From Myxococcales bacterium (lineage in GTDB: Bacteria; Myxococcota_A; Polyangia; Polyangiales; Polyangiaceae): a stretch of 44,596 nt of DNA. Below, one piece after another: positions 32,789 to 44,596 of this stretch (positions are counted from its first letter, which is position 1; every line of letters begins with the position of its first letter). Made by a program: the position numbers and the translations under genes. The stretch lies in contig CANJCO010000040.1 in assembly GCA_947473045.1 (NCBI GenBank), forward strand, positions 1 to 44,596, in the 5' to 3' direction. The notes under the pieces are model-generated. The model saw only the letters and a program-made list of their open reading frames with translations, ran no database searches and was not told the origin of the DNA.

Positions 32789-32958
32789 AAACGGCGGGAC
32801 GATAGCCCGCGGGAGCGCCCCGGGTCCACCCCGCCAACCGCCGGCGCGCATTTGCCCGCCGCGCCCCGAAGGCGGCTCGCGCGCGTGCCCATCGTCGCGC
32901 GCGGCGCGAAAGCCCCGAAATCGGGCGTCATTTGGGCAGCGAGAGCCGGCGGCGACGG

Positions 32959-32978
32959 GAATTCGGATCTCCGAATTC
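32959..32978. repeat. Palindrome at left island edge
   Basis: Nine-base arms GAATTCGGA and TCCGAATTC with two bases between. A close copy, eight-base arms with the same core, lies at 44259-44276 beyond the last island gene. The DNA facing the island is also partly alike in inverted order: gggcga, then gcgctgcg, then ggcggcc or cggccgc. Confidence 0.7.
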
Positions 32979-33077
32979 GGGCGATCGTCGCGCCGCGGCT
33001 CGACCGCGCTGCGGGGGGTGGCGGCCACAAGGAATTTCCGTCCGTTGCCGCGCGAAATCGAAGTGGCGTCCGGGCAC

Positions 33078-33105
33078 TTGACGTTTGTTTAGTTCGGGGT
33101 ATTGC
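33078..33105 (+). promoter_or_regulatory. Candidate promoter of the restriction-modification genes
   Basis: TTGACG (33078-33083), 16-base spacer, TATTGC (33100-33105). It would start transcription near 33112, leaving almost no leader before the GTG at 33116, or a 28-base leader before the ATG at 33140. Confidence 0.35.
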
Positions 33106-33115
33106 TCCGGATGCC

Positions 33116-33742
33116 GTGGCCCTGTCCCGCTCCGAGAACATGGCTCGCATTCGGTCGGCGAACACGAAGCCCGAGCTGCTCCTCCGAAGGGCGATTCATG
33201 CAGCAGGCGTGCGTTACCGTCTCCAGTTTCCGACGCCGGGTGGCAGGGCCGACCTCGCGATCTCCACCCGCAAGTTCGCCCTCTTCGTTGACGGATGTTT
33301 TTGGCACGGATGTCCCGAGCATTACGTGCGTCCAAGAACCAACGCAGCGTTCTGGAACGCCCGCCTTCGCCAGAACGTCGATCGTGACCGTCGTCAAACG
33401 CTGGCGCTCGAAGAGCGCGGTTGGTGCTGTTTTCGTGTGTGGGAGCACGAACTCAGCGAGGATCTCCATCGCGTCGTACGCGCGGTGATCGCCTGCTTGC
33501 ACGGGGAACCTTCGGCTAAGTCAAATCGCCGCGTGGTGTTCGTCGCTCCCCTGGATGAGCAAAGCAACACCGAGACGTGGTCCTTCGAGGATCTTCGCGA
33601 TTCCGCGCGCAAAGAGACGCTCGTCCGTGAACGCAGCACCCGAAAAGTCGGCCGGATCGGGTCGCTGCGGGATGACCAAACAACAGGATCGCATGTCAGG
33701 GGGAAACTGCATGATAGAAACAGCACCGATGGCACGTCGTAA
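33116..33742 (+). CDS. vsr: Very short patch repair endonuclease (Vsr)
   Basis: Nicks next to T:G mismatches left when 5-methylcytosine deaminates, protecting the sites of a neighbouring C5 methyltransferase. Family signs: [17 protein letters not shown] at the start, the metal-binding Asp in [20 protein letters not shown] with catalytic His and zinc ligands, and [12 protein letters not shown], where a usual Cys ligand is His. GTG 33116 keeps the conserved R-S-E-N-M lead; ATG 33140 would start inside it. At 208 residues it is about 60 longer than usual: the end, after A-C-L-H-G, is a polar tail that runs 32 bases into the methyltransferase gene. Confidence 0.88.
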
Positions 33743-34763
33743 GCGCAACAGTCCGACTTTCATCGACTTGTTCGCGGGAATTGGCGGTTTTCGCTGGGCG
33801 CTCGAGCGCGCCCTGGGCGCGACGTGCGTGTTTGCGTCCGAGTGGGACAAGTTCGCTCAAGACACGTATGAGGCCAATTTCGGCCATCGTCCCGACGGCG
33901 ATATCACGGCCATCGATCCTGTCGACATACCCGCGCACGATATTTTGACCGCAGGATTTCCCTGTCAGCCTTTTTCGATCGCGGGTGTGTCGAAAGCCAA
34001 CGCGCTCGGTCGACAACACGGATTTGCGCACGCGACCCAGGGCACGCTGTTCTTCAACGTCGCAAAAATCATCGAAGCAAGGCGTCCGCGCGCGTTCATT
34101 CTCGAAAACGTCAAAAACCTCAAGTCGCACGACAAAGGTCGCACGTTTACGGTGATTACCGAGACTCTGCGAGAACTTGGGTATTACTTTGATTCCAAGG
34201 TCATCGATGCTCGGCACTGGGTGCCGCAGCACCGCGAGCGAATCTTCATCGCCGGGTTCCGTGACGAAAACGATTTTGCGCGCTTCGATTGGCCCGTTGC
34301 GCCCGAGAAGGGGCCCGTGTTCCGCTCGATTCTCGAAAAGAAGGTCGACCCAAAATACACCCTGACCGATGGCCTTTGGGCGTACCTCCAGGCCTATGCC
34401 GCGAAGCACAAGGCGGCAGGTAACGGTTTTGGCTTTGGTCTCACCAATCTCGATGGCGTTTCCCGCACACTGAGCGCCCGCTACTACAAAGACGGTTCCG
34501 AAGTGCTGATACCTCAGCGTGCGCCAAAGAACCCGCGGCGCCTCAGTCCTCGCGAGTGCGCCCGACTCATGGGATACCCCGCCGAAATGAACATCGTCTG
34601 CAGCGACACGCGGGCGTACAAGCAGTTCGGCAACTCGGTGGCTGTTCCCGTGGTGACTGCCGTGTGCCAGCAGGTTCTCGGGGCCTTCGATACGCGACGC
34701 GCGCCTGTGCAACGAAACGGATCCGAGCAACTCAGGCTTTTCCACGCGCCCCGCGTTGCGTGA
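33711..34763 (+). CDS. DNA (cytosine-5)-methyltransferase
   Basis: 350 residues. C5-methyltransferase motifs in order: [20 protein letters not shown] with catalytic Cys85, [23 protein letters not shown], and [17 protein letters not shown] and [13 protein letters not shown]. The target-recognition stretch is short, as in Dcm-type enzymes of the CCWGG/CCSGG group, which fits the MvaI/BcnI-type partner; the exact site is not readable. ATG 33711 follows an AGGGGG; a second ATG is at 33729. It overlaps vsr by 32 bases and is followed after 56 bases by the restriction gene. Confidence 0.94.
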
Positions 34764-34819
34764 TTCAGCGCGCGGAGAGAGCGGCTTGCAGCGCGCTACG
34801 GCTCCGGTACCGTCTCGTC

Positions 34820-36127
34820 ATGGCTCTCGACGATGTCTTGAAGCAGCTCGCGCGCGCGGGCGCTCAAACGGTCTACGGAAAAGCGCTCGCGCCCAACGAC
34901 AACTCCAAGAATCAGGTTTATCTCGGCGGTTCCCTCGCAGCGGTGAACCTTCTGCCCGTTCGCGAAATCATCGCGGACGCTGAGTCTCCAAAACGCCTCA
35001 AGGCGCCCGTATCGTTCTCGTGGCTGACGCCTACAGGGCTGGACCCAGCGCCTCATGCACAACTAATCCTGTATCCAGATTACCCGGAAGTGAGGTTGTC
35101 GGGCTTTCTTCGCGGATGCACCCGCGCCCCGAACACCGTCATGGCCTCACGGGAGCCGGGTCGCGTGCTGCTCATCGGCGTCACTGCCGAGCGCACGATC
35201 GTCGCGATCGCCCTCGAATCAGAGGCCGCCGCGGCGGTCGAATTCATCGCAAAGGCCGCCACCTTCAAGACGTGGGGGGTTCTCGCTGAGCTCCCATTGC
35301 CAACAAGCATTTCGCTCTACGACGCCTCGCCGCTTTTAAGAAAACTCCACGGCATCCACACCAAGGGATGGATTCGCTCATGGAGCCTCGGCCCATTTGG
35401 TGAACGCAATCCGTGCGAGAGCGTGCAATGTGGCGGCTATACGCTTGAGGCCGAGTTGGGCATCGCAAAAAATGCGCGCTCTGAGCCTGATTTTCTGGGC
35501 TGGGAGATCAAGAGCTTCAAGGTAAAATCGACTGAAGCGGCACTGCTAAAAGGAAACGCCATCACCCTGATGACCCCCGAGCCCACGGGCGCTTTGTACT
35601 ACGACGACTTCGCCCAGTTCTGGTCACGCTACAGCTATCCCGACAAATCGAAGAAAGAGGGGCGGGAGGGCCGACGCAACTTCGGGGGCATCTACAAGTG
35701 CGGGGCGAGGCCGAACGCCACGACTGACTTGACGCTCACACTCGGCGACTACAACGCGGCAAAACAGACGTTCAACGCTGGCGGCGCCTTGAGCCTCGTC
35801 GACTCGAGCGGTCGCGTCGCTGCCTCCTGGGGCTTCGCAGGCCTGCTCGAAAAGTGGAGCCGCAAACACGCCCTCGCTGCGTTCGTGCCCGTCGAAGAGC
35901 ACCGCGATCAGCCCAGGCGATATCGCTACGATGCGCGCGTCGCGCTGGCGCGCGGCACGGACTTCACGCGCTTTCTGCAGGCGGTTAGCAAAGGAAAAGT
36001 TTACCTCGACCCTGCGGTGAAGTTTGAAGACGGTAAGTACAAGAAGCGAAATCAGTTCCGCGTCGCCTTCAAGGATCTCGCGTCGCTCTATTACGACTTC
36101 CGCGAAGAGCGGGTGATCGATCCGTGA
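34820..36127 (+). CDS. MvaI/BcnI family type II restriction endonuclease
   Basis: 435 residues. The catalytic core shows D224-F-L-G-W-E229-I-K231, exactly the D-x4-E-x-K spacing known for MvaI and BcnI, after an E-A-E-L-G-I-A-K-N lead. Those enzymes cut CCWGG or CCSGG as monomers. About 165 residues precede the nuclease domain here and form an N-terminal domain, absent from the short MvaI, whose function I cannot name. ATG 34820 was chosen because upstream in-frame codons overlap the methyltransferase gene. Cognate methylation by the enzyme at 33711 is inferred from position. The gene ends an apparent three-gene transcription unit. Confidence 0.9.
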   Translation: MALDDVLKQLARAGAQTVYGKALAPNDNSKNQVYLGGSLAAVNLLPVREIIADAESPKRLKAPVSFSWLTPTGLDPAPHAQLILYPDYPEVRLSGFLRGCTRAPNTVMASREPGRVLLIGVTAERTIVAIALESEAAAAVEFIAKAATFKTWGVLAELPLPTSISLYDASPLLRKLHGIHTKGWIRSWSLGPFGERNPCESVQCGGYTLEAELGIAKNARSEPDFLGWEIKSFKVKSTEAALLKGNAITLMTPEPTGALYYDDFAQFWSRYSYPDKSKKEGREGRRNFGGIYKCGARPNATTDLTLTLGDYNAAKQTFNAGGALSLVDSSGRVAASWGFAGLLEKWSRKHALAAFVPVEEHRDQPRRYRYDARVALARGTDFTRFLQAVSKGKVYLDPAVKFEDGKYKKRNQFRVAFKDLASLYYDFREERVIDP

Positions 36128-36501
36128 CGGAGGTTGGGATTGCACGGGAGGGTAGTGGGATACTTGCGCTGTGCGTCACGCGACGTTCTTGGGTCTGCCG
36201 CGCGACGGCGAGAGAGCGCATGCCGCCGTCTTCCGAAAGTGCAAGAAGTGACGAGCCCGCTTAGAGTCCAGAAGACGAATGCGTAGATGTTTTTTTGGAC
36301 ATCTCAACACTCCACTTACGGGACATTATTGCACCGCACGTGTGTGGGCGCGCGTCGCCCAATTACTGATAAACGTGCATCAAGCGGCCAGCTGCGCGAT
36401 CACGGTTGCACCTGTGCACACGGGCGTGTGACCATCAGACAGTGTCTCGCGCTCAGACCGGGGCGTCCGCGGTACCCACTCCCCCACACTTGGAGAAGCT
36501 T
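36128..36501. other. Intergenic region between the two defence modules
   Basis: 374 bases with no convincing gene. It is less GC-rich than the host DNA. It contains the AGATGT hairpin at 36285 and several weak promoter-like sites; it probably drives the four-gene operon. In-frame GTG 36442 and TTG 36490 of the ATPase lie in its right part and could be alternative starts. Confidence 0.6.
36285..36304. promoter_or_regulatory. Inverted repeat, possible operator
   Basis: Perfect six-base arms AGATGT and ACATCT flank an eight-base T-rich spacer. It lies about 200 bases upstream of the ATPase gene in an otherwise T-rich, promoter-like stretch. A regulator site is a guess; no regulator gene is in the island. 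Confidence 0.3.
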
Positions 36502-38046
36502 TTGCCCGAAGACAAGCCGCACTATCTCGACCGGGAGCTTCCGCCCGATCCTGCCGTTTTGCTACGAAGCCTTCGGGGTATTGGCTATTCAGTCGAGGAC
36601 GCGGTTGCCGACATCGTCGACAACAGCATCGCCGCGAGGGCCCAGAACGTCGACATCTGGCTGCACAGTCTCGAACACGATCTCGTCGTCGATATGGGCG
36701 ACGACGGCGAGGGCTTGACTCGTGAAGAACTCATGATCGCTCTCACCCTCGGAGCTCGGGAGAGGGATCCCGACCTTACTCGACGCGATCATGACCTCGG
36801 CAGGTTTGGGCTGGGGTTGAAGACCGCAAGTTTCTCCGTCGCACAGCGCCTCAGCGTGTACGCAATGAAGGATGGCGTGGCTTGCGGTGCCGCGTGGGAC
36901 CTCGCTACCGTTGCACGAACAGGCCGCTGGCGACTATCGCCCTTGAGCGAACTGGAGAGCGCGGAACTCTCTTCCCGCCTGTCCGATCGGTCAGCTGGGA
37001 CGGTTGTTCGATGGTCTCGTGTCGACCGCCTTCAGCAGACGCCCGGAGGCAGTCGGGCGGTCGGCGTCGCTCGACTCGAAGAGCGTCTCCGAAGACATCT
37101 CGGTATGACATACCATCGATTCCTGGATGGCCTTGACGCAGACGGGACAGCAATTCCGCGGACAAGTATCTCCATCAACGGTCGTGCCATCGCCGGGTGG
37201 AACCCGCTTCTTCCGTTCGTTGATCGTCCGGAGTTGGTCCAGTTTGGTGAGGTGCGAATGGCGCACGGCATCCGGGTGGAATACGCGGTACTTCCGCCGG
37301 AGGTCCAGATGCACGCCGAGGAGCGGGATCAAGCAACCTTGGAAGGGCGGCGCCTCACGGATATGCAGGGTTTCTACGTTTACCGGGGAAACCGTCTCGT
37401 CTGCTTTGCGAACTGGCTTGGCTTACCAGGCTACGGGAGCGGTCGCTGGAACAAGGACTCGTCAACGCAACTGGCTCGGATCGCTGTGGATTTGACAAAC
37501 GCGGACGACGAGGAGTGGTCGTTGGACGTGAGAAAGTCGAGAGTGACTCCTCCGGAGCGAGTGCGTCCTGCCTTAATTGAAATCGGCGCGGAGGCGCGAG
37601 CGCGTTCGAGGTCCCGGATCTTTGGCAGGAGTGGCAGCGCACGTAACGAGGGTCCGGACCCACGGTCAGAGTCTCTCTGGACGATGGAACAGGGCCGCCT
37701 TCAGATTAATCGAGAGCATCCGCTCGTTTCCTCCATTGTCGGTTCGACCGATGGGATTCCGAAGGCGGTCCTGGTCGCAGTGCGATCTCTCCTGCGTCAG
37801 CTCGAAAGCAGCCCAGCCCTGGTAGCGTTCGTGTCGGAGCAAGGCGCACGCGACGGTGGTGCGAACCCTCCGCCGCCCGAGGTCCTCGATGACGCCGACT
37901 TCGGGGAAGCGCTGGACCTTGCGCGTTTCTTACTCCGGTCTGGCAGGTCGCTGGCAAGCGTTCTCGCGATTGCTTCTGAGGACCCCCGTTACGGAAACAA
38001 CCCCGACCTGCTTGAGCGCCTGCGAGCAAGACTGGAGACTCGGTGA
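36502..38046 (+). CDS. GHKL (MORC/MutL-like) ATPase of defence operon
   Basis: 514 residues. The GHKL ATP-binding fold is complete: N-box V-A-D-I-V-D-N-S with D40-N41, G1 box D-M-G-D-D-G-E-G (64-71) and G-R-F-G-L-G-L-K (100-107). A transducer-like middle with a conserved Lys region and a helical C-terminal third follow. Such ATPases cluster with MutL/MORC and form ATP-dependent clamps on DNA. I start at TTG 36502, six bases after GGAG; GTG 36442 and TTG 36490 are alternatives. The stop overlaps the next gene's GTG by four bases, so ATPase and Z1 protein are made together. Comparative genomics has linked this family to restriction-modification loci (Iyer, Abhiman and Aravind). Confidence 0.88.
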   Translation: MPEDKPHYLDRELPPDPAVLLRSLRGIGYSVEDAVADIVDNSIAARAQNVDIWLHSLEHDLVVDMGDDGEGLTREELMIALTLGARERDPDLTRRDHDLGRFGLGLKTASFSVAQRLSVYAMKDGVACGAAWDLATVARTGRWRLSPLSELESAELSSRLSDRSAGTVVRWSRVDRLQQTPGGSRAVGVARLEERLRRHLGMTYHRFLDGLDADGTAIPRTSISINGRAIAGWNPLLPFVDRPELVQFGEVRMAHGIRVEYAVLPPEVQMHAEERDQATLEGRRLTDMQGFYVYRGNRLVCFANWLGLPGYGSGRWNKDSSTQLARIAVDLTNADDEEWSLDVRKSRVTPPERVRPALIEIGAEARARSRSRIFGRSGSARNEGPDPRSESLWTMEQGRLQINREHPLVSSIVGSTDGIPKAVLVAVRSLLRQLESSPALVAFVSEQGARDGGANPPPPEVLDDADFGEALDLARFLLRSGRSLASVLAIASEDPRYGNNPDLLERLRARLETR

Positions 38047-40970
38047 CGATCGCGATCAAAGACGACACGTTTGCCAATGTGGTCCGAACAGCGGAATACT
38101 TCATCGAAATGAGAACGTCTGCGCCGTCGCAGCTAGTGCCGCTTCATGTAATTGATGAGGCGGTTCTCAAGGCGGTAAGGCAGCTGCTCGAAGACAGTTC
38201 ACCCGAAGAGCGGAAGGTCTATTCGGAAGAGGCATCCCGACGCGTACAGGCCAGCCGGCGAGTCGAGATCGCCGACCCGAACATGCTCGTCGATGGACCC
38301 CGGGTGGACTGGTATGGCGGTGAGCGCAAGAAGCTTCGGCCGCTCTGGGACCGGTACAAGCGACTTTTGGCAGACGAGTTGGGCTTTGACGCTAATACAA
38401 TCGCAAGTATCGACCGATCCAGCGATCAGATTGTTGAACAGCTCGGTGACCCTGAATCGCGCGGTACGTTCGACAGGCGTGGTCTCGTGGTCGGTCAGGT
38501 CCAGTCAGGAAAGACGACGAGTTACGCCGCAGTAATCAACAAGGCGATCGATTCGGGATACCAAGTAATTGTTATCCTGACCGGGGTTCATGAGAACCTC
38601 CGAGTTCAGACGCAGAAACGGCTCGAAGAGACAGTGCGCGGCCTTGCGACGGAGACGGGGAGGCCCGGCGGTCCCGGCAAGGGGACTCCTCTGCGCATCG
38701 CAGAGATTCAGCACATCGCGTCTCCTCCTCATCTTTTTACGACCAGAGCCATTGGCGGCGATTTTTCAGCGGATGCCAGTCACTTTGCGAGCTCGGTCGC
38801 GGGCACGCACATGTTCGTTGTCAAGAAGAATGCTCGGATACTCAATGAGCTACTACGCCACTTTCAGAGCAGTGTGTACGAGCACGAGACAACTGGGCGA
38901 ATGGAGCTGAAGGGGCGCTCGCTTCTGATTATCGACGACGAAGCCGATAACGCATCGATCGACACCAATAAACCTGATCCGAACGATTTTGATCACGACC
39001 CGACCACAATCAACCGGTCTATCAGACGTATTTTGATGCAGTTCCAGAAACGCGCGTACGTTGGATACACAGCTACGCCATATGCTAATATACTCATTCA
39101 TAAGGATAACGAAACCAGTGAGTACGGCCCGGATCTGTTTCCTGAAGACTTTATCGTCATGCTTCCTGCGCCATCCAACTACGTTGGCCCGACGACATTC
39201 TTCGGCGGGTCGTCGCTCGGAGTTGAGGCCGGCGGTTCGCCGTCTGCGCCGCCCCTGCTTCGTCATGTGAAGGACTGCGGAACAGCCGACTCTGCTGATT
39301 GGATGCCCAAGGGGCACAAGAAGAATCATGTTCCCAACGTCAAGGGGGTCGCGGGCATTCCGCTGTCCCTTGAGAATGCGGTTATCTCGTTCGCTATTGC
39401 CACGGCGGTGCGACGCCTCCGCGGCTGGGGACGAGCCCACAATTCGATGCTCGTTCACGTCTCGCGCTTCAAGCTGGTGCAGAAACAGGTGCGCGAGCTG
39501 CTGGGCGTGTTCGTTTACAAGCTCAAGGGCGCGTTGGCTGACGAAGATAGCGATCCAGAGTTGAGCAGGCGGTTTCGTCAGCTGTACGACGCGGACTTCC
39601 TACGGACCACGGGCATTATTGCTGAGGCTGAGCGGGGAAGCATTTTCGCGTTTCCCGAGATAAAGATTGAGGTTCAGAACGTTCTTGACTCAACGAAAGT
39701 GTGGACGGTCAATTCTGAAGCGGATACCGCGCTCGACTATGAACAGTACCCGAATGGTCTTACGGTTATCTGTGTTGGCGGAGACAAGCTGTCACGCGGG
39801 CTGACTCTAGAAGGGCTTACGGTAAGCTACTTCCTCCGCGCCACGAAAATGTACGACACGCTCATGCAGATGGGTCGTTGGTTTGGCTATCGACCCGGCT
39901 ACAAGGACCTGTGTCGGCTGTATCTGACGGAGGAACTGTCGCGCTGGTATCAACATGTTGTGCGCGCCGACGAGGAGCTGCGGGGTGAGTTCTTGAACTT
40001 GGAAGCGGAGCGACGCAAGCCTTCTGACTACGGCCTTCGCGTGCGCAGTCATCCGTCTCTGATGGTCACTGCGCCGGCGAAGATGGCGGCATCTCAGGAG
40101 CTCTCGCTGGATTTTGGCGGCCGTGTATCTCAGACGATTCACTTTTTCCGAGATCCGGAGGCGCTTAGGCAGAACGCTCAGGAAACAGAAGCTTTTCTCC
40201 AACGGATCGTGCCGTACGCAGAGACAGTCCACGGACTGGTGCGGCGGGATCCTGTCAGCGGAGCACCAGCGGGTAGACAGCCGCTATCTGGCTATCTCTA
40301 CACGAACGTGCCTGTACTCGACGTGAGAAACTTCCTCCGAAGGTTCAGGTTTCACCCCGACGCGAACACGGTTGGCGCCGCACCGCTAATCGAGTTTCTT
40401 GATCGACTGATCACGAGCGGTATGGAGACGGCCTGGAGCGTTGTTGTTGCGTCGGGAGGGCGTCCGGACGACGCCGGACGAGCGACGGTGGCGTTGGCTC
40501 CAGGCGTATCGGTGATCCCGGTCTCGCGAGCGACGAAGCCAGCCGCAGAGAAGGACTGGTCTGAGGGCCGACGCGATGACGCAATTGTGCTCGGAGTGCT
40601 TGCCTCCCCGAGCGATCTCGTTGCGGACCTACAGGAACACGAGGTGAGCCGCTTGAGCGGGCTGCCCAAGGGGCGCGTCAAGGTCGACCCAACAGCAGGT
40701 GAGTACGCGGCGCGCAGTCGTGCCTGCAAGGCTCGAGACCCGAACCACTGCCTTCTGGTAATCTACGTGGTCCAGCCGACGACGACGCTACACGTCGATG
40801 GCGAACCAAGCGACGAGAAACCTAAAAATGTGGAGCTGGCACCTGGCTCTCAGCTGCCGATCGGCATAGCAATAGCTCTGCCGGAAAACCCGAATATGCC
40901 GTCGGTGAGCTACGTGGTGAACTCGGTCAAGATTGATGAATTCGAGGCACAGTTCACAAGTGACGACTGA
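38043..40970 (+). CDS. Z1 domain protein, helicase-like ATPase
   Basis: 975 residues. Walker A G-Q-V-Q-S-G-K-T-T (151-159, Lys157), I-L-T-G-V-H-E-N-L-R, Walker B I-I-D-D-E-A-D (D298-D302), G-Y-T-A-T-P-Y-A-N and a Z1 region with G-G-D-K-L-S-R-G-L-T-L-E-G-L and Q-M-G-R-W-F-G-Y-R. These are superfamily II helicase motifs fused to the Z1 domain, which is seen almost only in this gene neighbourhood. The 200 C-terminal residues are unassigned. GTG 38043 overlaps the ATPase stop. Codon use is clearly less G+C-biased than in the host genes (see around 39060-39120). It probably moves or remodels DNA for the nuclease next door. Confidence 0.9.
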   Translation: MTIAIKDDTFANVVRTAEYFIEMRTSAPSQLVPLHVIDEAVLKAVRQLLEDSSPEERKVYSEEASRRVQASRRVEIADPNMLVDGPRVDWYGGERKKLRPLWDRYKRLLADELGFDANTIASIDRSSDQIVEQLGDPESRGTFDRRGLVVGQVQSGKTTSYAAVINKAIDSGYQVIVILTGVHENLRVQTQKRLEETVRGLATETGRPGGPGKGTPLRIAEIQHIASPPHLFTTRAIGGDFSADASHFASSVAGTHMFVVKKNARILNELLRHFQSSVYEHETTGRMELKGRSLLIIDDEADNASIDTNKPDPNDFDHDPTTINRSIRRILMQFQKRAYVGYTATPYANILIHKDNETSEYGPDLFPEDFIVMLPAPSNYVGPTTFFGGSSLGVEAGGSPSAPPLLRHVKDCGTADSADWMPKGHKKNHVPNVKGVAGIPLSLENAVISFAIATAVRRLRGWGRAHNSMLVHVSRFKLVQKQVRELLGVFVYKLKGALADEDSDPELSRRFRQLYDADFLRTTGIIAEAERGSIFAFPEIKIEVQNVLDSTKVWTVNSEADTALDYEQYPNGLTVICVGGDKLSRGLTLEGLTVSYFLRATKMYDTLMQMGRWFGYRPGYKDLCRLYLTEELSRWYQHVVRADEELRGEFLNLEAERRKPSDYGLRVRSHPSLMVTAPAKMAASQELSLDFGGRVSQTIHFFRDPEALRQNAQETEAFLQRIVPYAETVHGLVRRDPVSGAPAGRQPLSGYLYTNVPVLDVRNFLRRFRFHPDANTVGAAPLIEFLDRLITSGMETAWSVVVASGGRPDDAGRATVALAPGVSVIPVSRATKPAAEKDWSEGRRDDAIVLGVLASPSDLVADLQEHEVSRLSGLPKGRVKVDPTAGEYAARSRACKARDPNHCLLVIYVVQPTTTLHVDGEPSDEKPKNVELAPGSQLPIGIAIALPENPNMPSVSYVVNSVKIDEFEAQFTSDD

Positions 40971-41988
40971 AATTACAGGTGTAATCGAGTGTGAGCTCCA
41001 ATCTCACTGGGAAGCAGAACTGGCGTCGCCCACGCGCAAGGCCTACGAAGGGCGTCGGCTTCTTTCCGTTGCGCCCATAGAAGCCTACGCGGGAGTCGAC
41101 CAGATCGGCGGGCGACGGTTTGTTGCTATCCGGCTCGACTCGGGCCGAAGAAAATTGCTGGCCGCGCGTTTTCCTCGGAGCAGCAAGGGGATCCTCGTTG
41201 AGAACGTCGAGCAGGGGGGCGGTAGGATTACCTTCTTCCTTCGCGAGGAAGCAGGCGTGCCACGGGCTGTTTTCCCCGCCGTCATGCTGGACGTACTGGT
41301 TGCCGGGGACGGTGCTGCGATCGAGACGGCAGCACGCGCGACTCTAGAACGGTTCTCGTCATGGCAGGCCGCGCTGAGCCGGCAAGCAGGCGGAATGACC
41401 GCCGCGGAAGTGCGCGGAATCCTCGGTGAGCTGATCGTGGCGCGTGACGTCATCGAGCCGGAACTGGGCACCGCCGCTCTCATCGAAGCATGGAGGGCGC
41501 CAGATGATGACCATATTCATGATTTTGTCGGCGCAACCTGGGAGCTTGAGGTCAAGACGGCGATCACTCCGGCAACGCATTTTCACGTCAGTGCTGAAGG
41601 GCAACTTGAGCCGGCGGCAACCAATCGAATGTTCCTCGCCGCTGTGGAGCTCGAACCAGCCAGCGAGGGCACAAGCCTGAGTGGGATCGTCGAACAGATG
41701 CTTTCGCGGCCCGGAGCGACGGACGACCTCACCGAAGCGCTCCGCAACGCATTCATCCGACGGGGGGCTATGGTGCGCACCACGGGTGGCGAAGCGGTGC
41801 AGCAATACCGCGTGGTGGCCGTCGAACAGTTCGAGGTCCGTGACGGGTTTCCGCTCCTGCTACGCAAAACGATGCCTGGGGGCGTCAGCTCGCTTCGCTA
41901 CCAGGTGAGTTTTTCAGCCTGCAAGCTGCACAAAATCGACCGAGGCGTTTTGTCGAACGCCATCACAAACCAGGAGAACGCACAATGA
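40960..41988 (+). CDS. PD-(D/E)XK motif protein, DUF4420
   Basis: 342 residues. Nuclease-like residues are in place: G-E-L with Glu157, H-D-F-V-G with Asp188, and W-E-L-E-V-K with Glu197 and Lys199, the ExK of the PD-(D/E)XK fold. Family DUF4420 is described as such a nuclease that accompanies Z1 and AIPR genes. Start chosen at GTG 40960, which overlaps the Z1 stop by 11 bases and gives M-T-T-E-I-T-G-V-I; TTG 40933 and ATG 40936 are in frame but lie deeper in the Z1 gene. No membrane segment. Most likely the nuclease of the operon, but activity is not shown by sequence alone. Confidence 0.85.
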   Translation: MTTEITGVIECELQSHWEAELASPTRKAYEGRRLLSVAPIEAYAGVDQIGGRRFVAIRLDSGRRKLLAARFPRSSKGILVENVEQGGGRITFFLREEAGVPRAVFPAVMLDVLVAGDGAAIETAARATLERFSSWQAALSRQAGGMTAAEVRGILGELIVARDVIEPELGTAALIEAWRAPDDDHIHDFVGATWELEVKTAITPATHFHVSAEGQLEPAATNRMFLAAVELEPASEGTSLSGIVEQMLSRPGATDDLTEALRNAFIRRGAMVRTTGGEAVQQYRVVAVEQFEVRDGFPLLLRKTMPGGVSSLRYQVSFSACKLHKIDRGVLSNAITNQENAQ

Positions 41989-44108
41989 CGGAACTGAAGA
42001 CGCGCGACGACTTTTACAAGGTGCTGTGTGGCGTCTCGATTCCCGAACGGGCAGCCCAACTCGTGGCGGAGGACCAGACGCGCGAGGGCAGCGCAGAACT
42101 GCTCGGATTTGCTCAGTACGCGCTCGAGATACTCGAGTCCGAAGGATGGACTGAGGAGCCTCAGTCAGTGTTCTTCAGGCGCAAGATCGGGCGCCCGCTC
42201 CGAGAGGTCGCATTGCCGGTCTATTCGCTGCTCGTCGAGGAGGGAGCTCTGCATTTGTTCGGATTTCATTATGATTCCACGGCGGTCGACCCGGTCATCC
42301 TTGAGCAACGAATCATCGAAAGAGAGCGAACGCGCCTCTCCGGCCTCGTCGACCTTCTTCGCGACCCCGTTTTCGACCTGTCAAGCCTGGCCGACGACCT
42401 TGCCGTGCCGCACCTCCAAACGCTGCGTGATTTTGTGAATTCGGATAAGTGCCGCGCAATCAAGTACTTTATCGTAACTAACCAGATCAAGCGCGAGCGT
42501 GGCCGACAGGAAAAAACCGCCGACGGCAAGGTATTCACTGAGGTTGTCGATCTCGAGCGTCTATTCCGCTGGTCGCGCGGTACCGCGAGCCGCTCGGAGA
42601 TCGAGGTCAACGTGAAGGAGATGATGGGGCCGGAGCGCCTCATCGCGCTACGGACGCCCAGTACGACTGACGACGTGACGACGTTTCTGGCGGTACTTCC
42701 AGGCCGTTTTCTCGCGGACCTCTACGAGGCGTATGATAACCGGCTGTTGGAACTGAATGTACGCTCGTTCCTCAGTGCAAAAGGAGGGGTCAACAAAGGC
42801 ATCCAAGAGACCCTGAAGAGTCCGGAACGGCGACGTTTTTTCCTGCCCTACAACAACGGGATCGTCATGGTGGTTGACGAACTCGAAACGGAGGAACTCG
42901 GGAACGGCGCCACCGAGATCAAGTGGCTAAAGGGAGTCCAGATCGTGAACGGTGGTCAGACGACCGCTTCGCTGTTCAAAGCGCGACGCGATTTGAAGAA
43001 GGATGACCCGCTCGAGAACGTCTTCATACAGGCCAAGATCATCCGTCTGAACCGACGAGGCGACGAGGCTGAAATTGTCAAATCGATCTCGCTCTACTCA
43101 AACTCGCAGAACAAGGTTGAGATGGCTGATCTTGGGGCGAATGAGGCTTTCCATCGAAGACTCGAGCAGCTCGCTGAACTGGAAGTCGACCCGCGTGACG
43201 GGGCGTTCTGGTTCTACGAGCGCATGCGCAACGCCTACGCTGTGAAGCTCATGCTCGAAGATTCGTCGGCGTCGCGGCGTCGATGGCAAGACAGGCACCC
43301 GAAAGAGCGAGTGATCACGAAGACGGACCTCGCGAAATACATGATGGCTTGGGACAGGCAGGCTGCGACCGTGGCCCGTGGCAACCAGAAGTGTTTCAAC
43401 GCCTTCGCGCAGAGTTACCACGTAAAGCCGATCAAGACTGACGCGGCAGCGGAAAAGGAAGTGACGTCGGATCGATACAAGGAGACCATCGGAAAAGTCA
43501 TCGTCTACAGAACTGCTCACAAGATCGTGAAAGGCGACAAGGAGGCCTTCACTTCCAACCAGATTAACATCGCAACTTATACTGTGGCGTACCTGTCGCG
43601 CCGGGTCGGTGGCGAACTGGACTGGAAAACGATATGGAGAAACCAGGAGTTGTCGGGTGAGATGCAGTCGGTTCTGAAGTGGTTCGCGCGGAGCGTATCG
43701 AAGTACGTCGACAAGGTTGGCGCCGGACGCCTTGGCTCGGAAGTGTGCAAGAAGGAAGGGCTTTTCGAGGAGATGTGGCGCGAGCTGTCGGACCTGCCGC
43801 TTCCCGGGGAGATCCCCGAGCCGGTCGAGGCGAAGGGGAGGCTTAACGGTGGAGAGGAGCCCCCAGACCCTGAGGACCAGAACAATATTTCGGAGGTGAT
43901 GTCGTACGCCCCCGAGCGCTTTGCGGCCGTTCACGCTGCTGCAGAAGCAAACAGGGATGCCTTGAGCGAGTATCACATCGGCGTAATCAGGAAGTTGGAC
44001 GCGCTGGCGCAGAATGGATGGCTCGAGCGGCCGAGGCCCAAGCAAGCGAAGATGTTTCTCACGGCGTTGGCCAAACTCGAGAATTTCGGTCTGGTAGAAA
44101 GCGACTGA
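41985..44108 (+). CDS. AIPR family protein (abortive infection phage resistance)
   Basis: 707 residues. The AIPR core has L-P-Y-N-N-G-I-V-M, then V-N-G-G-Q-T-T (N322-T327), I-Q-A-K-I-I-R-L, and N-S-Q-N-K-V-E-M-A-D-L-G-A-N-E-A-F, the marks of this family. AIPR was named after abortive infection phenotypes in lactococcal systems; the biochemical role remains poorly known. ATG 41985 overlaps the previous stop (ATGA) and has an AGGAGA ten bases before it. No signal peptide. It is the last gene of the four-gene operon; a 10-bp hairpin follows 48 bases after the stop. Confidence 0.9.
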   Translation: MTELKTRDDFYKVLCGVSIPERAAQLVAEDQTREGSAELLGFAQYALEILESEGWTEEPQSVFFRRKIGRPLREVALPVYSLLVEEGALHLFGFHYDSTAVDPVILEQRIIERERTRLSGLVDLLRDPVFDLSSLADDLAVPHLQTLRDFVNSDKCRAIKYFIVTNQIKRERGRQEKTADGKVFTEVVDLERLFRWSRGTASRSEIEVNVKEMMGPERLIALRTPSTTDDVTTFLAVLPGRFLADLYEAYDNRLLELNVRSFLSAKGGVNKGIQETLKSPERRRFFLPYNNGIVMVVDELETEELGNGATEIKWLKGVQIVNGGQTTASLFKARRDLKKDDPLENVFIQAKIIRLNRRGDEAEIVKSISLYSNSQNKVEMADLGANEAFHRRLEQLAELEVDPRDGAFWFYERMRNAYAVKLMLEDSSASRRRWQDRHPKERVITKTDLAKYMMAWDRQAATVARGNQKCFNAFAQSYHVKPIKTDAAAEKEVTSDRYKETIGKVIVYRTAHKIVKGDKEAFTSNQINIATYTVAYLSRRVGGELDWKTIWRNQELSGEMQSVLKWFARSVSKYVDKVGAGRLGSEVCKKEGLFEEMWRELSDLPLPGEIPEPVEAKGRLNGGEEPPDPEDQNNISEVMSYAPERFAAVHAAAEANRDALSEYHIGVIRKLDALAQNGWLERPRPKQAKMFLTALAKLENFGLVESD

Positions 44109-44156
44109 GCATTGTTGGGTTCTGGATCTGTCTGCGTCGAGGCGTCGTGACCCGTT

Positions 44157-44181
44157 GCGGCCGACGGTTCCGTCAGGCCGC
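44157..44181 (+). terminator. Probable terminator hairpin after AIPR
   Basis: Stem gcggcc-gacg with cgtc-a-ggccgc (one bulged A, loop gttc), 48 bases after the AIPR stop. The T-run after it (tcgttt) is weak. Confidence 0.45.
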
Positions 44182-44258
44182 TCGTTTCCCTGCAAGATCT
44201 ATCGAGTCGGACGTCGTTTTGCGGCCGTCGCAGCGCCGCGCCGCGGCACCGCTCGCCC

Positions 44259-44276
44259 AATTCGGAGGTCCGAATT
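44259..44276. repeat. Palindrome at right island edge
   Basis: Arms AATTCGGA and TCCGAATT with two bases between them; the same core as the palindrome at 32959. Together the pair bracket the seven defence genes. Confidence 0.65.
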
Positions 44277-44596
44277 TCGGCGCTGGGGGCGTTTTGGCTG
44301 TGATGCTACGGAGCGCGTTTTGCGTGCTCACGGCCCCCCCCTCCGCTTGGAGGCGTTCGTGATGCTCGCTACTATCGGCGGAGACGACCGGACAACGCCG
44401 CGCCAATGCCGCGCGTCTTTTTTTCGGGCCCCGCCGCTCTGTTGCTCCCCCGCCACCGACGCGCTCGCGCCGTAACGCCCGCGCGGCGCGTCGCGCCGGC
44501 GAATGGCTGACATCGGCGCACTTGCGACGCATCGCGAGGCCACCGTTTCTCGGTAACGCTCAGTTGCGTGGGTTCACGAGATCCACATGATGAGCG

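Follow-up and report, generated by a model that had tools for sequence, protein, structure and literature searches.

A type II restriction-modification set beside an MZA-like operon in a Myxococcales genome, with one methyltransferase as a possible common partner

Can the methyltransferase of a restriction-modification set also serve as the self signal of a defence operon that stands next to it? The question is raised by a stretch of 44,596 nucleotides from a Myxococcales bacterium (assembly GCA_947473045.1), which is the whole of contig CANJCO010000040.1 in a genome of 5.15 Mb and 138 contigs and is called the window here. Seven plus-strand genes at positions 33116-44108 encode a Vsr mismatch endonuclease, a C5 methyltransferase and an MvaI/BcnI endonuclease (the restriction set), followed by a MORC ATPase, a Z1 helicase, a DUF4420 nuclease and an AIPR protein (the core). 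A preliminary description of the sequence suggested that the two modules share a methyl mark, and that the core may respond to the same unmodified sites or sense cut or modified DNA. With confidence just short of even, we favour an acquired defence island in which the two modules have one methyltransferase in common, the core tolerates varied recognition, and the reading of sites lies elsewhere than in the core.

Evidence for a partnership between core and methyltransferase came from a sample of 144 Z1 loci, which leans to close relatives and is made up of the window, 20 stretches that come from 19 further genomes of the same phylum, 31 viral contigs, 12 plasmid loci out of 40 records, and the best 80 of at least 571 confirmed relatives from a genome scan. 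Genes were labelled by iterated hidden Markov model searches seeded by the window's seven proteins and seven neighbouring genes; the endonuclease families detected are those seeded, from single proteins, so distant enzymes may escape. Z1 itself occurs in 20 of 377 genomes of the window's phylum, the window's own included. The full core is present in 105 of the 144 loci, and its order, which the preliminary description had proposed to check across genomes, is MORC-Z1-DUF4420-AIPR in all 105. Flanks of 6.5 kb or more on each side of Z1 are available for 81 of the full-core loci, a set that does not include the window. Of these, 80 have a C5 methyltransferase no more than 8.5 kb away, 61 have Vsr, and 25 have MzaA, a protein of the MZA system introduced below. 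Over all 144 loci, short flanks included, a methyltransferase was found in 130 and Vsr in 84. The methyltransferase is placed upstream on the same strand in 38 cases, downstream on the opposite strand in 23, downstream on the same strand in 15 and upstream on the opposite strand in 9. Since only 88 of 187 genomes of the phylum have a PF00145 match of any kind, this closeness goes beyond chance, and a partner so nearly constant suggests that the enzyme or its mark is important for the core.

The specificity of that partner is far less constant than its presence. Recognition regions of 137 C5 methyltransferases of at least 300 amino acids (7 from loci without Z1) fell into 19 groups, and a FastTree phylogeny of the concatenated core was built for 105 loci, of which 99 could be typed, giving 8 types. 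On this tree there are at least 23 changes of type, compared with 50-61 in 100 label shuffles; over four clustering thresholds the figure is 13, 23, 25 or 36. Recognition type is thus partly inherited with the core and often exchanged, and it switches even between cores more than 85% identical. Among core pairs at 75% identity or more, 7 of 37 differ in type, and in the three different-type pairs that were aligned (L055/L063, L050/L070 and L049/L065; L numbers denote loci) the recognition regions are only 19-28% identical. For L055 and L063 the figure is 28%, against 79-88% for the core proteins; for L049 and L065 it is 19%, against 60-87%.

Clear changes in the core that match these switches were sought in MORC, Z1, DUF4420 and AIPR, and none was found. 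Identities between L049 and L052, which share a type, are 80% for MORC, 74% for Z1, 63% for DUF4420 and 85% for AIPR, and those between L049 and L065, which differ in type, are 77%, 75%, 60% and 87%; comparing L049, L052 and L067 with L065, no core protein falls further in a different-type than in a same-type pair. From L055-L050 (same type) to L055-L063 (different type), DUF4420 and AIPR drop by 8 points, MORC by 2 and Z1 by 4. MzaA does not track recognition type in either group (46% identity in the same-type and 49% in the different-type pair of the L049 group; 58% and 56% in the L055 group). Because the type is so often exchanged on the core tree, it is probably not the core itself that reads the methyltransferase site, a result that goes against the earlier suggestion that the core responds directly to unmodified sites.

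Within the window, the idea of a common self mark fared better. The window methyltransferase is the sole PF00145 match in its genome, and one mark for both modules is plausible because, both here and in three other loci (L044, L126 and L174), no methyltransferase other than that of the restriction set was found next to the core. These four are the loci in which a CCWGG-type cutter stands beside a full MORC core.

The gene calls on which this argument depends are secure. The seven genes, their order, strand and limits agree with the preliminary description in both open reading frame coordinates and Pfam matches, and its tightly overlapping four-gene operon is seen in overlaps of 4, 38 and 4 bases (Table 1). 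Pfam E-values are 2.3e-20 for Vsr, 4.7e-84 for DNA_methylase and 2.7e-34 for MvaI_BcnI in the restriction set, and 9.6e-26 for HATPase_c_3, 8.7e-76 for Z1, 4.6e-39 for DUF4420, 7.2e-79 for AIPR and 1.3e-9 for AIPR_N in the operon; every one of these matches clears the curated cut-off. The reading frames of Vsr and the methyltransferase overlap, and the endonuclease gene starts 56 bases after the latter. Given that 278 or 314 bases, depending on the MORC start, separate the two modules, they are probably separate transcription units. A consensus promoter scan of 32900-44596 gave no more sites than shuffled sequence, terminators were at chance level, repeats were unremarkable, and a tRNA search of the window found none. 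G+C content is 0.63-0.72 upstream; beyond about 33 kb it is lower, at 0.56-0.62. Searches with the flanks in 20 genomes, among them the window's own, yielded no clean empty site. The contig ends 488 bases past the AIPR stop; this last piece (44109-44596) has no clear operon gene and matches 2 other genomes of the 20 searched, over short stretches only.

Table 1. Features of the restriction set and the MZA-like operon, in window coordinates.
Feature	Coordinates	Strand	Basis and remarks
Vsr mismatch endonuclease	33116..33742	+	Uncertain start (reading frame stays open upstream); over cut-off for PF03852 and TIGR00632; alignment with solved mismatch endonuclease 1cw0
C5 cytosine methyltransferase with Dcm-like target-recognition region and CCWGG as predicted site	33711..34763	+	Start 33711 or 33729; PF00145; alignment with 3lx6; type T4
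MvaI/BcnI-family endonuclease, 435 aa, PD-x4-ExK motif intact	34820..36127	+	PF15515; invariant residues in 6 aligned proteins
Endonuclease N-terminal domain, distant kin of EcoRII-type N-domain and of the last gene of some Z1 operons	34820..35350	+	hhalign
Gap without called gene between restriction set and four-gene operon	36128..36405		Open reading frame coordinates, sequence
MORC-type GHKL ATPase, MzaB-like	36406..38046	+	Start 36406 or 36442; PF13589; PADLOC MzaB 7.8e-73; GHKL residues kept
Z1 superfamily II helicase, MzaC-like	38043..40970	+	PF10593; PADLOC MzaC 7.9e-168; Walker A/B kept
DUF4420 PD-(D/E)XK nuclease, MzaD-like	40933..41988	+	PF14390; PADLOC MzaD 1.1e-10; E, D, E, K invariant in alignment
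AIPR protein, MzaE-like	41985..44108	+	PF10592, PF22879; PADLOC MzaE 6.3e-82; structure model and fold search

The restriction set has the make-up of an MvaI/BcnI type II system, with a PF15515 endonuclease carrying PD...ExK and an adjacent C5 methyltransferase. The recognition region of the methyltransferase aligns closely with that of the solved cytosine methyltransferase 3lx6, whose specificity we take to be Dcm-like (CCWGG), and its site is therefore predicted to be CCWGG. Its type, T4, is that of stand-alone MvaI sets. The endonuclease scores 119.6 bits against a PF15515 cut-off of 25, and its residues P226, D227, E232 and K234 (numbering of P0003) are invariant in six aligned proteins. 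A search of the PDB with the endonuclease matched no solved chain at E 1, and a structure model built from two rows has a mean pLDDT of 38. MvaI and EcoRII are neoschizomers with a common site (PMC4081073).

The preliminary description found it notable that a complete type II enzyme lies between Dcm/Vsr and the operon, and such enzymes are indeed uncommon among the detectable types. An MvaI relative was found in only 1 of the 144 Z1 loci, the window itself; this count, which comes from iterated searches with the window's enzyme, is a lower bound because the search missed two PF15515 genes (in genomes G274 and G236) in their own loci, L169 and L170. Of 356 genomes of the phylum, 5 have PF15515 over cut-off, those two among them, and the window's is the only one of the 5 that is also among the 20 Z1 genomes. 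On plasmids, an MvaI relative occurs in 17 records and a Z1 relative in 40, with no record in both groups. An enzyme with an EcoRII-C part occurs in 5 of 144 loci (L024, L030, L044, L126 and L174; confirmed by Pfam for L024, L044 and L126), and one combining AspBHI_N and Mrr_cat in 7 of 144 (Pfam on L175 only). The notion that a type II enzyme typically stands beside the core was rejected on the MvaI and EcoRII-C counts. As for the proposed test of co-occurrence, the specific link with MvaI failed it in the loci and plasmid records covered, and what held was the wider pairing of a CCWGG-type restriction set with a Z1 operon.

Several side observations concern the company of the methyltransferase. 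The AspBHI_N and Mrr_cat enzymes, modification-dependent by family, stand next to MZA-like cores with a C5 methyltransferase in L056, L065, L087, L154, L175, L178 and L180, a seemingly self-endangering pair. A gene resembling HhH-GPD glycosylases lies near the methyltransferase, where others carry Vsr, in L023, L024, L025, L030, L072, L076 and L077 (Pfam and PADLOC on L076 only), and in L097 an HhH-GPD-like stretch is fused to the methyltransferase. In L071, L082 and L090 two C5 methyltransferases, one of type T2 and one of type T10, are found in tandem upstream of the MORC gene.

Type T4 methyltransferases occur in nine Z1 loci, namely the window, L023, L024, L025, L030, L044, L126, L143 and L174. 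Seven of these, all except the window and L143, contain a domain first recognised as the N-part of EcoRII-type enzymes, which was found in no other Z1 locus. It lies inside the enzyme in L030, L044, L126 and L174; it is a stand-alone last gene right after AIPR in L044, L126 and L174 (Rhizobiaceae, one lineage); and in L023, L024 and L025, which are Z1-DUF4420-paraMORC operons from the window's phylum, it makes up the C-part of the gene that closes the operon. The stand-alone genes (L044:15454-16158, L126:14454-15173 and L174:15454-16164; 235-240 amino acids) start on the AIPR stop, and each is a homologue of the N-domain in the EcoRII-type enzyme of its own locus. In the last genes with a C-terminal domain (L023:15126-16397, L024:3845-5119 and L025:3790-5064) no nuclease part was found. 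An EcoRII label for the L023 and L025 proteins and the 425-aa L024 protein was rejected, since only the N-domain is in common, which lowered the EcoRII count from seven to five; Pfam places the L023 protein in DUF6339. In L023 and L025 a CCWGG-type methyltransferase accompanies a Z1 operon that bears the domain, and no cutter from the seeded families was found; in L143 neither the domain nor a cutter from these families was detected.

The MvaI enzyme of the window carries an N-domain of its own, about 150 residues long, for which Pfam gave no match and sequence searches of the PDB nothing convincing. An hhalign comparison of this domain (window and five relatives) with the EcoRII-type N-part domain gave a probability of 85.8 and an E-value of 5.3e-6 (for one comparison) over 111 columns at 25% identity, centred on a common NQ motif. 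Kinship with true EcoRII-N (PF09217, plasmid EcoRII in L195) is no more than a lead: the comparison gave short matches at similar positions that were not significant (probability 2.2 and 0.2).

Three of the core proteins retain residues that are invariant in aligned relatives, namely those of GHKL in MORC, Walker A and B in Z1, and E-D-ExK in DUF4420, the E, D, E and K of the last being invariant across the alignment of 105 loci, window included. All four core proteins miss the NCBIfam equivalog cut-offs for MzaB to MzaE, with 268.8 against 850, 678.7 against 1500, 77.8 against 420 and 346.3 against 1050 bits. On the core tree the window stands alone on a long branch (1.99 for the end branch; 34% best identity) outside the MzaA clade, although its placement is unsure. 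Between 36127 and 36406 there is no room for an MzaA gene upstream of MORC, and a search of the window's own genome with the MzaA-like protein of L022 found matches to the sigma part only (query 439-664). Because of the long branch and the absence of an MzaA gene, we call the operon MZA-like.

The AIPR protein was modelled from 26 rows with a mean pLDDT of 80.3. The best VIA-align scores for its N-part (1-201) are to restriction-fold nucleases (HamA, Z 7.3; FokI, 7.3; MspJI, 6.2; SduA, 6.1), and its middle (225-378) resembles ParB-N and SspE (Z 5.7 to 4.4); all these scores are below 8 and may mirror a common arrangement only. Foldseek matched the model to nothing in the PDB at E 0.001, and the one match at that level or better in a viral fold library is a phage AIPR protein. 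The N-part is probably not a nuclease in the window, since no more than 69% of 102 relatives keep Asp 90, which is replaced by His here, and the likeness of the middle to the modification sensor SspE is a lead. In L051 and L054 the first AIPR gene of the operon is followed by another member of the family, which is larger (883 and 932 amino acids).

Gao et al. are said to have described MZA in 2020 as an anti-phage system of the proteins MzaA to MzaE. The window resembles it in having matches to MzaB, MzaC, MzaD and MzaE on one strand and in MZA order, and differs in that MZA has MzaA (of ankyrin and sigma-70 type) and the window has an MvaI set attached. The best PADLOC match of the methyltransferase is DrmMII; DrmA, DrmB and DrmC of class 2 DISARM were absent from the matches of the other six proteins, and no BREX protein was among the matches listed for the seven (25 of 60 families for the methyltransferase), other open reading frames of the window not having been scanned for either system.

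The grouping of these gene families is not new as a kind; as the preliminary description noted, they are known to cluster. In 2008 Iyer, Abhiman and Aravind described a third type of MORC operon in prokaryotes. Their text associates it with cytosine methylases and Vsr, the legend of their figure 2 adds type II endonucleases and AIPR, and they proposed that MORC loops DNA between recognition and cut sites (PMC2292703). That type matches the window in its MORC protein, helicase and E-D-ExK nuclease; its S5-domain motif GhXhhpXXRhl is present in the window's MORC protein P0004 as GFYVYRGNRLV, and its helicase motif DThhQXuRhFG at the C-terminus of P0005 as DTLMQMGRWFG. The accessible text of that paper, figures aside, contains no MvaI/BcnI enzyme and no exchange analysis. 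An island of Corynebacterium diphtheriae BH8 has an EcoRII-like endonuclease, a Dcm-like methylase, a Z1 helicase and DUF4420 (PMC5379612), and so shares with the window a CCWGG-type set beside Z1 and DUF4420; it differs in having EcoRII in place of MvaI, and three of its proteins are unclassified. In BREX, the methyltransferase BrxX/PglX gives both site recognition and the self mark to a multi-protein defence (PMC11842806). The BREX proteins are different ones, and the likeness is a proposed analogy, not membership.

How the two modules would act on the favoured reading we infer from these families. The first would be a complete type II set, in which the methyltransferase marks presumed CCWGG sites of the host, the MvaI-family enzyme is predicted to cut unmarked sites, and Vsr is predicted to repair T:G mismatches arising from deaminated marked cytosines. 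In the second, the MORC clamp ATPase and the Z1 helicase would capture DNA and remodel or travel along it, the DUF4420 nuclease would cut the captured DNA, and AIPR may serve as a nucleotide-driven sensor. The restriction set's methyltransferase would take the slot of the core's usual C5 methyltransferase, and the choice between self and non-self could be made through it, by analogy with BrxX, or through a small exchangeable reader domain; in the window, site-finding and reader roles could both fall to the restriction set.

Several points weigh against this reading. The recognition types rest on sequence clustering, not measured sites, and they are partly inherited, so core and methyltransferase are not wholly independent. 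At 50-65% core identity, DUF4420 is about 4 points lower in different-type pairs, and above 65% it is equal; the pairs are not independent, and there may be a weak link of DUF4420 to the site. L084 has a full core and ample flanks, and no methyltransferase was found there. The window core is so isolated on the tree that what relatives show may not apply to it, and members of the MvaI family may read CCSGG instead, as BcnI does.

The strongest rival is that the modules are two independent neighbours, an MvaI-type cassette of Vsr, methyltransferase and endonuclease having landed beside an MZA-like operon that makes no use of its mark. Similar cassettes do stand alone. In the four of the 17 MvaI plasmids that were read (L122-L125), methyltransferase and endonuclease occur together, with Vsr in three, and the viral contig L168 has a similar cassette; the set on Sagittula plasmid p8 is like that of the window in methyltransferase type, Vsr and an endonuclease with the same N-domain, and unlike it in having no Z1 gene within the 13.3 kb read. 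The rarity of MvaI relatives in Z1 loci and the gap between the modules also fit. But a C5 methyltransferase is close by in nearly all full-core loci, and with no other PF00145 match in the genome an unrelated cassette would leave the operon without its usual partner. We consider this explanation unlikely, though deserving of real weight.

A second possibility, which we rate as somewhat less probable, is that the core senses DNA ends, damage or modification made during infection, such as MvaI ends or foreign 5-methylcytosine, and that the host mark has only a role connected with repair. MORC is a relative of MutL, Vsr is a frequent neighbour, the middle of AIPR resembles ParB-N and SspE, and modification-dependent enzymes of the AspBHI_N and Mrr_cat type occur in some loci. 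The fold matches are middling, however, the seeded cutters were not found in most loci (other endonuclease families were not searched for), and methyl-dependent attack would threaten a methylated host genome.

It is improbable that a portable CCWGG-reader domain links type II enzymes with MORC-Z1 machines, so that the MvaI enzyme of the window would be both cutter and target finder, passing unmarked CCWGG to the MORC-Z1 machine. In our sample the EcoRII-type N-part domain occurs only beside CCWGG-type methyltransferases, and a separate domain gene and MzaA were both not found in the window. Slightly less credible again is a core that recognises the unmethylated methyltransferase site itself, as a second restriction enzyme for CCWGG: the near-constant partner, the partial inheritance of types and the small DUF4420 deficit speak for it, but type differences between closely similar cores, with recognition regions so divergent, and the lack of any matching fall in core proteins of the L049 group speak against it.

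The exchange analysis makes the choice between self and non-self directly testable, since a C5 methyltransferase seems to be required and its specificity seems to be free. Among the papers listed in our literature search, with most subscription papers outside it, none dealt with how MZA-like machines separate host from phage DNA. The pairs L055/L063 and L049/L065, with similar cores and different methyltransferases, are natural swap pairs, and the window locus adds to a core a cutter whose site is probably known. If the shared domain does read sites, it would show restriction enzymes and MORC-helicase machines trading recognition parts. Such trading, if true, would bear on the route by which the MORC proteins of eukaryotes acquired their action on methylated chromatin, a connection that PMC2292703 proposes.

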